Positions 6,001 to 7,777 of a DNA stretch of 64,000 nt are shown here, in pieces. A program made the position numbers and the translations under genes. The first letter of the stretch is position 1; every line of letters starts with the position of its first letter. Source of the stretch: Vibrio sinaloensis. GTDB lineage: Bacteria; Pseudomonadota; Gammaproteobacteria; Enterobacterales; Vibrionaceae. The stretch covers positions 1,674,001-1,738,000 of the forward strand of contig NZ_CP096199.1 in NCBI RefSeq assembly GCF_023195835.1, read 5' to 3'. The notes below the pieces were generated by a model that saw nothing but the letters and a program-made list of their open reading frames with translations, was not told the origin of the DNA and searched no databases.

Positions 6001-6070
6001 TTTTGAGCGCTTCGAGAAAGGTGAGAACGATCGGATCAACATCCGACTGTGAATGTAATCTTGGTAACAT
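3038..6070 (-). CDS. ydiJ: D-2-hydroxyglutarate dehydrogenase-type FAD/Fe-S oxidoreductase
   Basis: A 1010-residue fusion flavoprotein. The N-terminal half is an FAD-binding type 4 domain (RGGGTGTNGQSLTKGIVVDLS near residue 85) followed by an FAD-oxidase C-terminal domain (GMFGHVDAGVLHVRP, MWGEHGKGFRSEYG). The C-terminal half has Fe-S cysteine clusters (CLACKACASQCP near residue 665 and an upstream CNGNGLC...MCPSMK set) and a cysteine-rich CCG-type motif near the end (VGCCGMAGTFGHE). The order and length match E. coli YdiJ, reported to oxidise D-2-hydroxyglutarate to 2-oxoglutarate with electrons passed through the Fe-S centre. Transcribed alone with its own terminator. Confidence 0.93.
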   Translation of the reverse strand: MLPRLHSQSDVDPIVLTFLEALKNAGFSGDIESQYSNRLAVATDNSVYQQLPQAVVHPKSTQDVMLIGKLATKPEYERVTFSPRGGGTGTNGQSLTKGIVVDLSRHMNKVLEINAEEGWVRVQTGVVKDQLNDAVRPYGYFFSPDLSTSNRATLGGMINTDASGQGSLKYGKTSDHVLSLQAVFADGSVLESDLSHGMPTEGEFAYQAYHQTERVCRDKRQQIEDKFPPLNRFLTGYDLKNALDTDNDCFDLTRVLCGAEGSLAFITEAKLNLTPIPKARTLVNIKYNSFDSALRNAPFMVEASALSVETVDSKVLNLAKQDIVWHTVSDLLTDVPGKEMQGINMVEFAGQDEQEVAQQVSSLCQRLDSMMEDNQAGIIGYQVCDDLASIGRIYNMRKKAVGLLGAAKGRAKPVAFAEDTCVPPENLADFIAEFRELLDAKSLNYGMFGHVDAGVLHVRPALDLCDPKQEALMHEISDEVVKLVAKYGGLMWGEHGKGFRSEYGPEFFGDELFTELRRVKAAFDPHNKMNPGKICTPLESNETLVKVTDTKRGYYDRQIDVEVRDSFKQAMECNGNGLCFNYDTSSPMCPSMKVTADRRHSPKGRAGLVREWLRQLTEQGVDILDLEKQTLEKNASIKTMIDRVRNNLNKRHEYDFSHEVYEAMNGCLACKACASQCPIKVDVPSFRSRFLNIYYSRYQRPAKDYLVANIETMLPLMAKAPKLVNGALKQRWVQDLTAKTVGYVDAPLLSTPTLSERLAHLPRFDLQQLAALSQQDKANHVVIVQDPFTSYYDAEVVADFAQLVMKLGKTPILLPFKPNGKAQHIKGFLKQFAANAANTAAFLQQVADINIPLVGVDPALVLCYRDEYQEVLGDKRGDFEVLTVHEWLQPRLAEFEQAEQNDAKPWYLFAHCTEKTKMPNAEKEWGAIFAHFGASLQTVPVGCCGMAGTFGHEVDKLQMSKDIYGLSWKPRLQDLPQDRCLITGYSCRSQVKRFEQVKTKHPLQALLSII

Positions 6071-6258
6071 TTGCTTCCTGCCCCCTACGACGCCGATCCT
6101 ATCAGCACTGGGGTCATCTGGTTTTTAACTATTTTTTGAATTAGGTCACTTTACAACATTTAAAAGGGTGATCAAAACAGAAATGCAGTGTCAGAATGGT
6201 AAAAATCGCATTTTTTTCCCACACTTATATCTAGCCTTTCTAAATTGTAAGTGTCTTT

Positions 6259-6954
6259 ATGAGCGAATCATCAATGAAAAGAAACAAAGTCGTAACTACC
6301 GAAGATATTCTATTGAAATTGTGTCAGTCTGTTTCTGGCGTTCTCACCTCTGCCACCAGCTCGAATGTGACCTATTCAGCCATGGTACAAAAAATCACAA
6401 AAACCAGCTTAAAGCCTGACTTCGGTTGCTTCGTGCTATTCGACGGTGGATTCTCAGGTTTGGTGGTGATCAACTTCACGTCTAAGGCAGCGTTAGAACT
6501 CTACACCAACTACATGCGCAACATGGGAATGCCGGAAGATGAGTTGGCAGTGCTTCATACCTCAGATGAAGTGGCCGATGTGTTGGGCGAACTGATGAAC
6601 CAGTTGGTGGGTCACTTTACCAACCAAGTGCGCAAAGAGCTGCAAACGCACATCACTCAAAACCAACCCAAAATGTTGTCACTCAACAAGCAGGTAAACT
6701 TGTCTGTCGACACCAATTTGGATCGCCCACAAGCTCGCCGAGTCACCTTCTCAACGGAAAAAGGCAATATCTTCTATCTTGAGTTAGCCATGGATAAAAC
6801 CGAGTTCATTCAACTTGAAGAATTCGAAGTGGCAGAAGACGAGTGTCCAGATGATATTCTTGAGCAAGCTCAGCAACAAATGAAACAGAAGCAGTCGCAA
6901 CCGGCGGCTGAGAAAGGCAATTCCGACGACTTGCTTGATGAATTAGGCATCTAA
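6259..6954 (+). CDS. DUF3334 protein with CheC/CheX-like phosphatase signature and CheZ-like tail
   Basis: A 231-residue cytoplasmic protein I recognise as DUF3334, a family without assigned function that is common in vibrios. What I see: residues 107-137 fit D-x3-E-x2-N-x22-P (D107, E111, N114, P137), which is how I recall the catalytic signature of the CheC/CheX/FliY CheY-P phosphatases. The preceding segment (CFVLFDGGFSGLVVINF) resembles the CheC-fold strand that runs into that helix. A Gln-rich, probably disordered linker (about 203-222) leads to the last residues DDLLDELGI, close to the CheY-binding C-terminal peptide of CheZ (DDLLDSLGF). Inference: a phosphatase acting on CheY or a CheY-like receiver. 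Start at 6259; an internal ATG at 6274 is an alternative. It has its own terminator and no chemotaxis neighbours. Confidence 0.8.
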   Translation: MSESSMKRNKVVTTEDILLKLCQSVSGVLTSATSSNVTYSAMVQKITKTSLKPDFGCFVLFDGGFSGLVVINFTSKAALELYTNYMRNMGMPEDELAVLHTSDEVADVLGELMNQLVGHFTNQVRKELQTHITQNQPKMLSLNKQVNLSVDTNLDRPQARRVTFSTEKGNIFYLELAMDKTEFIQLEEFEVAEDECPDDILEQAQQQMKQKQSQPAAEKGNSDDLLDELGI

Positions 6955-6978
6955 TCCTTCTCTCTTTCTATTCAGCTT

Positions 6979-7005
6979 AGGCTAACTCCATCGGGGTTAG
7001 CCTTT
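6979..7005 (+). terminator. Terminator after the DUF3334 gene
   Basis: Inverted repeat AGGCTAACTCC/GGGGTTAGCCT with a three-base loop, followed by a T-rich stretch (TTGTCATTTTT). Confidence 0.75.
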
Positions 7006-7084
7006 GTCATTTTTACTCGATCCGATTTCCGTTTTGGCGCTGAAAACGGTAAAATGTCCGACTTTGTCAATTTAGTGAGATTTG

Positions 7085-7777
7085 ATGCGGTCGATGGATA
7101 AACAAAAAGCCCTCAAAAAAATTGCGAAATGTCTAGAGCTCGGTAATTCAGCTAACGTCAACGAAGCGGCTAATGCGATAAAAATGGCGCACCGTTTGAT
7201 GCTGAAATACGGCCTCGATAAAGATGACATCGAGTTCATTAAAATGGGCAAAACCCAATCCACTCACTTATTACCTGCTGATGTCAGCTCCAACCTGCTG
7301 CGTATCATTCGCGGCATCAATACCAAATTCGGCGTCGAAGCGGTGCTGCTCAATCACAAAGGGCTAAAACGAGTCGAATTTATCGGTGAAGCCGATCGCG
7401 CCATCTTTGCCGCCTTCGCGTTCGACATCATTTATCGTGAGATGAATGAACAAACTGGCCGTTTTCGTAATAGCTTTGCCGGTACAGGTACACCAACCGC
7501 AGAAGTGACTCGACGCGTTAACTCCTTTCTTTCCGGTTGGGTCGAAGGCGCACTCGAAAAGCTGCCTATCATCAGTCCTGACGAAGAATCAGCAAAAAAA
7601 ATCGACGATTACATCGACAAAGAGTTTCAAAACATCGACCGTGAGACGTTCAAACAGCAGCTGCGTGAGGCGATGAAGAACCTGACTGAAGATTATGAAG
7701 TCGGGCTAAAAAAAGGCCGCACCGTTTCAGTGAATCGCCCAATCGACGGCGCACAAGCCCCCAAAATGCTGCGATAG
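7085..7777 (+). CDS. DUF2786 domain-containing protein
   Basis: About 230 residues. The N-terminus MDKQKALKKIAKCLELGNSANVNEAANAI, followed by MAHRLMLKYGLDKDDIE, is the conserved DUF2786 module, which occurs in bacterial and phage proteins of unknown function. The rest is helical and charged with no motif I can name. The reading frame is open from a TTG at 7082, with ATG codons at 7085 and 7094. I chose 7085 because a GTGAG sits five bases upstream; 7094 would begin exactly at the domain consensus. No signal peptide. It stands between its neighbours with separate spacing. Confidence 0.75.
   Translation: MRSMDKQKALKKIAKCLELGNSANVNEAANAIKMAHRLMLKYGLDKDDIEFIKMGKTQSTHLLPADVSSNLLRIIRGINTKFGVEAVLLNHKGLKRVEFIGEADRAIFAAFAFDIIYREMNEQTGRFRNSFAGTGTPTAEVTRRVNSFLSGWVEGALEKLPIISPDEESAKKIDDYIDKEFQNIDRETFKQQLREAMKNLTEDYEVGLKKGRTVSVNRPIDGAQAPKMLR

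Follow-up and report, generated by a model that had tools for sequence, protein, structure and literature searches.

The DUF3334 gene and its product

The 64,000-nucleotide stretch of Vibrio sinaloensis DNA analysed here (contig NZ_CP096199.1, positions 1,674,001 to 1,738,000 of the forward strand; hereafter the window, to whose positions coordinates refer unless another locus is named) carries on its plus strand, at 6259..6954, a gene of the DUF3334 family encoding 231 amino acids plus a stop. An earlier note on this DNA had proposed that the protein joins a CheX-type active site to a CheZ-type CheY-docking tail. The CheX fold predicted for it, the invariance of E111 and N114 in the sets examined, the wide occurrence of the tail and the co-occurrence of the family with CheZ and FliM support this hybrid, and we consider it likely that DUF3334 is a phosphatase of phosphorylated CheY (CheY-P) that belongs to the CheC/CheX/FliY superfamily and bears a CheZ-style docking tail. 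The family assignment itself holds: residues 9-231 match positions 2-226 of the 226 in PF11813 (E 9.1e-116; 385.8 bits against a curated cut-off of 25.2). Many of the homologues among the matches listed begin at Met6, a likely alternative start at 6274, and residues 1-5 may therefore be untranslated.

Residues 13-186 (6295..6816, plus strand) are predicted to form a mixed alpha/beta domain of the CheX fold, as the earlier note had anticipated, and not the long four-helix bundle of CheZ. The solved CheX structures compared (T. maritima 1squ/1xko, the Borrelia CheX-CheY complex 3hzh, V. vulnificus 6vpw, and Shewanella 3h2d and 3iic) share only 14-19% sequence identity with it. The Pfam CheX profile PF13690 matches the Vibrio protein with 35.6 bits against a curated cut-off of 27 (E 9.7e-9) and is matched at E 0.01 or better by 74/74 members of the family, while the CheC profile PF04509 stays below its own cut-off (16.2 against 22). 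The CheZ profile PF04344 is absent from the three Pfam families that match the Vibrio protein at E up to 10, and at the same threshold there is no match to a C-terminal SpoA/FliN domain. The second row of a profile search of the PDB (E 0.21) was T. maritima FliY, aligned at E-x2-N.

The putative catalytic residues lie on a predicted helix spanning residues 103-128 (6565..6642, plus strand; secondary structure of the model). The signature D-x3-E-x2-N-x22-P claimed for this protein was found in it once, with D107, E111, N114 and P137 placed as described; its E-x2-N part lies on the one helix, with the proline downstream. E111 (6589..6591), N114 (6598..6600) and P137 (6667..6669), all on the plus strand, are invariant in 26/26 and 74/74 members, and E-x2-N-x22-P is present in 358/358 proteins (the query plus 357 homologues among the matches listed, taken from three lists of the best 120 of 4711, 3647 and 3086 matches). 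D107 is the part of the signature that did not stand, as this position is N in 207, D in 144 and another residue in 5 of 356 proteins. In CheC, CheX and FliY an asparagine orients the attacking water and an acidic residue forms a salt bridge with the receiver lysine (PMC3035606, in excerpt). By analogy, N114 would correspond to N99 of CheX (same excerpt) as the candidate water-orienting residue, with E111 as the candidate acidic one, so that DUF3334 retains a candidate for each catalytic role.

The domain is followed by a linker, residues 187-222 (6817..6924, plus strand), where the confidence of the model is low at residues 214-221. The flexible Gln-rich linker of the earlier note is present in the Vibrio protein; the Gln-richness, however, is local, and both the length and the sequence of the linker vary between genera. 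Residues 223-231 (6925..6951, plus strand) read DDLLDELGI, as had been reported, and CheZ of the same Vibrio (whose genome is referred to below as the own genome) ends in DDLLSSLGF. The CheZ C-terminus follows DD[LI]L[SA]SLGF in 48/48 sequences read (53 loci). Since CheZ owes most of its affinity for CheY-P to a short, tethered helix at its C-terminus (PMC1447658, in excerpt), the resemblance suggests that the DUF3334 tail is a candidate CheY-binding peptide of the CheZ type.

That most members of the family possess the tail was borne out: within the order Enterobacterales it is present in 94/95 DUF3334 genomes outside the Succinivibrionaceae, as judged by reading the sequence in 52 genomes (51 tailed) and, in the other 43, by a profile match reaching position 225 or 226. 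One genome carries the variant NDLLDELDL (G379), and in another DUF3334 ends early (G416). A loose tail pattern was used to preselect 23 non-redundant tailed members, of which all 23 have Leu at -3, 21 have Gly at -2 and 19 have Asp at -8. Among the matches listed the tail pattern occurs in 121/121 proteins of the Vibrio list (query included), 118/120 of the comamonad list and 24/117 of the Succinivibrio list. The pattern D/E-hyd-hyd-x-x-L-G-hyd-stop (hyd, hydrophobic) occurs six times in the DNA of the own genome and its reversed control seven times; of the six, only those of CheZ and DUF3334 are real gene ends, the other four comprising one that ends in TGG, one with an in-frame stop and two antisense inside other open reading frames (ORFs). 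In view of their conservation in the family and of this C-terminus scan, a chance origin of the active-site and tail motifs was set aside.

Some further observations concern the C-terminal part. A second short motif, PDDIL (residues 197-201; 6847-6861), follows the domain and loosely recalls other CheY-binding peptides; its P197 and D198 are conserved in at least 90% of 74 members, tail-less ones included. One genome (G520) has a tandem DUF3334 pair (L093:3805-4500 and L093:4825-5529) with the tails HDALLSSLGI and HDDLLDSLGI. In G652, which has CheZ and FliM, DUF3334 is split (L107:3893-4566) and the second piece is tailed.

Co-occurrence with CheZ and the Succinivibrionaceae

DUF3334 was found in 113/295 genomes of the order (18 of the 113 being of a family that the names of database matches identify as Succinivibrionaceae). 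Both DUF3334 and CheZ occur in 112 genomes, DUF3334 only in 1, CheZ only in 93 and neither in 89 (Fisher p 2.4e-22, uncorrected for kinship). FliM is present in 112/113 DUF3334 genomes, while in genomes with FliM and without CheZ, 16 of the 17 of which come from one family, DUF3334 is found in 0/17. This co-occurrence ties the DUF3334 family to flagellar chemotaxis. DUF3334 thus usually coexists with CheZ, and in this Vibrio it coexists also with a tail-less conventional CheX. Within the own genus it is present in 16/21 genomes; of the five that lack it, four also lack CheZ, FliM and CheW, and one (G519) retains all three. Outside the order it is rare (5/369 genomes of the class, the own genome counted). 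In one 410-contig assembly (G317) the DUF3334 match is broken (L005/L006) and CheZ was not found; another genome of the same family (G218) has both.

The Succinivibrionaceae were sampled separately as 56 genomes; DUF3334 was detected in 46 of them and CheZ in 40. A tailed DUF3334 occurs in nine, six without and three with CheZ, the six (draft assemblies) being G415, G660, G661 and G662 of genus g306 and G691 and G692 of g369. Where DUF3334 is tail-less, CheZ is found in 35 genomes and not in two (G680, 59% complete, and G683, 87% complete). The association of the tail with the lack of CheZ has a Fisher p of 2e-4, again uncorrected for kinship. A tree built from the DUF3334 core groups the tail-less rows in a single clade (support 100/100, on a branch of 0.9 changes per column) and the tailed rows without CheZ in a second (94/89, just below the tool's star). 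Despite their long branch the tail-less proteins (L071-L085), where read, keep E111, N114 and P137, as if their partner or role had changed.

In the g306 lineage the chemotaxis operon reads FlhA-FlhF-FlhG-FliA-CheY-CheA-CheB-MotA-MotB in G415 and FlhG-FliA-CheY-CheA-CheB in G567; in both, cheY and cheA are about 100 bases apart. Elsewhere cheZ lies between these two genes in 20/22 CheZ loci examined (17 of them from Succinivibrionaceae), and the remaining two show cheY-cheZ, with cheA not in the available stretch. These two g306 operons are the basis for placing a possible loss of cheZ between cheY and cheA. G567 also has an extra 324-amino-acid ORF between fliA and cheY (L281:9911-10885), and about 730 bases separate these two genes in G415 as well. 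The sole CheX-family match in G415 is DUF3334, CheC having received no search of its own.

In one Succinivibrionaceae lineage the tailed DUF3334 may be the only phosphatase of this kind. A more speculative extension, which may well be wrong as a whole, is that the hybrid protein can replace CheZ: CheZ would have been lost in the g306/g369 lineage, leaving the tailed DUF3334 as the sole CheY-P phosphatase, the tail would have decayed in the clade that keeps CheZ, and two unrelated phosphatase folds would share the peptide as a portable module for the same CheY.

Proposed mechanism and alternative explanations

By analogy with CheX, the protein would have one active site on helix 103-128 of its CheX-fold domain, where E111 would pair with the receiver's conserved lysine in a salt bridge and N114 would position a water molecule to attack the phospho-aspartate in line. 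Carried on its flexible linker, the C-terminal peptide would dock on the face of CheY used by the CheZ tail, raising the affinity and keeping CheY at the catalytic domain.

Several observations weigh against this interpretation. No PDB chain was found as a sequence relative of the Vibrio protein at E 0.001, and the comparison of the DUF3334 profile with four conventional CheX proteins, which paired E with E and N with N correctly, reached a probability of 19%. Kinship inflates the co-occurrence statistics. DUF3334 is missing from 93/205 CheZ genomes and is hence dispensable. In 37/46 Succinivibrionaceae with the protein it is tail-less (by profile coverage; G669 is fragmented), and the clade structure suggests that tail loss and CheZ loss happened about once each. 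FliM was not found in the draft assembly of G415, nor either CheZ or DUF3334 in that of G567. Finally, a scan with 12 chemotaxis and flagellar proteins of the own genome of 158 flanking loci (3.6-19 kb, or less where a contig ended) placed the tested chemotaxis genes near DUF3334 in just one.

This last result, together with the solitary position of the Vibrio gene and the presence of both CheZ and a conventional CheX in the own genome, would also suit an active phosphatase of the CheX type that acts mainly on a different receiver (that of CheV, a second CheY or one from another pathway), with the tail docking there. We regard this as unlikely, since the family co-occurs with CheZ and FliM in 112/113 genomes and its tail is like that of CheZ, which has CheY as its partner. 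A role in which DUF3334 binds CheY without catalysis, as an adaptor or sink, and employs its CheX fold in the way FliM employs its middle domain is considerably less probable: the catalytic E/N pair is invariant in the sets examined, tail-less members included. That the tail has a role other than CheY docking (chance likeness, a protease signal or contact with another partner) fits the mere nine residues of the match and the existence of an entire tail-less clade, and is slightly less plausible still given its retention outside the Succinivibrionaceae, the conserved Leu and Gly and its restriction in the own genome to CheZ and DUF3334.

We class DUF3334 with the CheC/CheX/FliY kind and not as a CheZ. 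From CheX it differs by the added linker and CheZ-like tail; it resembles CheZ in the sequence of its terminal peptide, on a flexible linker, but in neither fold nor Pfam match; and from FliY and FliM it differs in lacking the SpoA/FliN match and in the C-terminal position of its putative docking peptide. Joining a CheC-type domain to a peptide that docks on CheY is not entirely new, as FliY combines such a domain with a FliM-like CheY-binding peptide at its N-terminus. Neither is the catalytic half, because databases already name several members "chemotaxis protein CheX" or "CheY-specific phosphatase CheX"; the names listed mention neither the tail nor CheZ. The coexistence of CheX and CheZ in one genome is likewise not new in itself, having been described for Campylobacterota (PMC9321776, in excerpt). 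Among open-licence PMC papers we found none naming DUF3334 or PF11813, and the titles and abstract openings listed for CheX or CheZ contained no description of the family, of the tail or of CheZ replacement.

The conventional CheX of the own genome (153 amino acids, tail-less, beside a Fur-family gene; L282:1888-2349, near 2675510 of G000:C1) is close to V. vulnificus CheX 6vpw (E 1.8e-95). A CheX-family gene of V. cholerae, VC0377, carries P8L in a motility suppressor (PMC8789113, in excerpt). VC0377 was considered as a DUF3334 member and rejected, since it agrees with the conventional CheX: in the own genome that protein has a proline at residue 8 and its gene lies beside the Fur-family one. 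The gene order around VC0377 presumably matches that neighbourhood. Comamonas CtCNB_4786 is said, from unpublished data, to quench chemotactic signals (PMC6600141, in excerpt); it may be a DUF3334 protein.

That unrelated folds perform the same chemistry in CheX/CheC and in CheZ is well known. If our interpretation is correct, the union of the catalytic site of the one with the docking peptide of the other would show substrate capture and catalysis to be modules that evolve separately. As many as three proteins (CheZ, the conventional CheX and DUF3334) could then dephosphorylate CheY in this Vibrio, which would affect the reading of a cheZ deletion there.

Gene neighbourhood and minor observations

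The neighbouring genes confirm that the Vibrio gene stands alone, away from chemotaxis genes. On its 5' side lies a gene for an FAD/4Fe-4S oxidoreductase on the opposite strand; on its 3' side come a terminator-like hairpin (6979..7003, plus strand; consensus scan, 11 pairs), which begins 25 bases past the stop and says nothing about function, then a DUF2786/DUF7168 gene and an OmpA-family gene. None of the 25 sigma-28 pattern matches in the window (shuffle mean 15.7) lies upstream of the DUF3334 gene, and a scan of 6040-7100 gave no sigma-70-like site. A mobile origin was rejected: the phage collection had no match, and the sole match in the plasmid collection was a 4.9 Mb Aeromonas record.

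An operon partner for DUF3334 was likewise rejected, as only one of the 158 loci (L137 of G232) carries cheY, cheZ, flhF, flhG and fliA; a match to CheY at L219 came from a 902-amino-acid ORF (E 1.9e-21). The gene order in G232 is flhF-flhG-fliA-cheY-cheZ, a T2SSE/MshEN ATPase gene (L137:10277-12067) and DUF3334, MshEN being a c-di-GMP-binding type of domain. A tip motif of methyl-accepting chemotaxis proteins occurs near DUF3334 in 6/158 loci.
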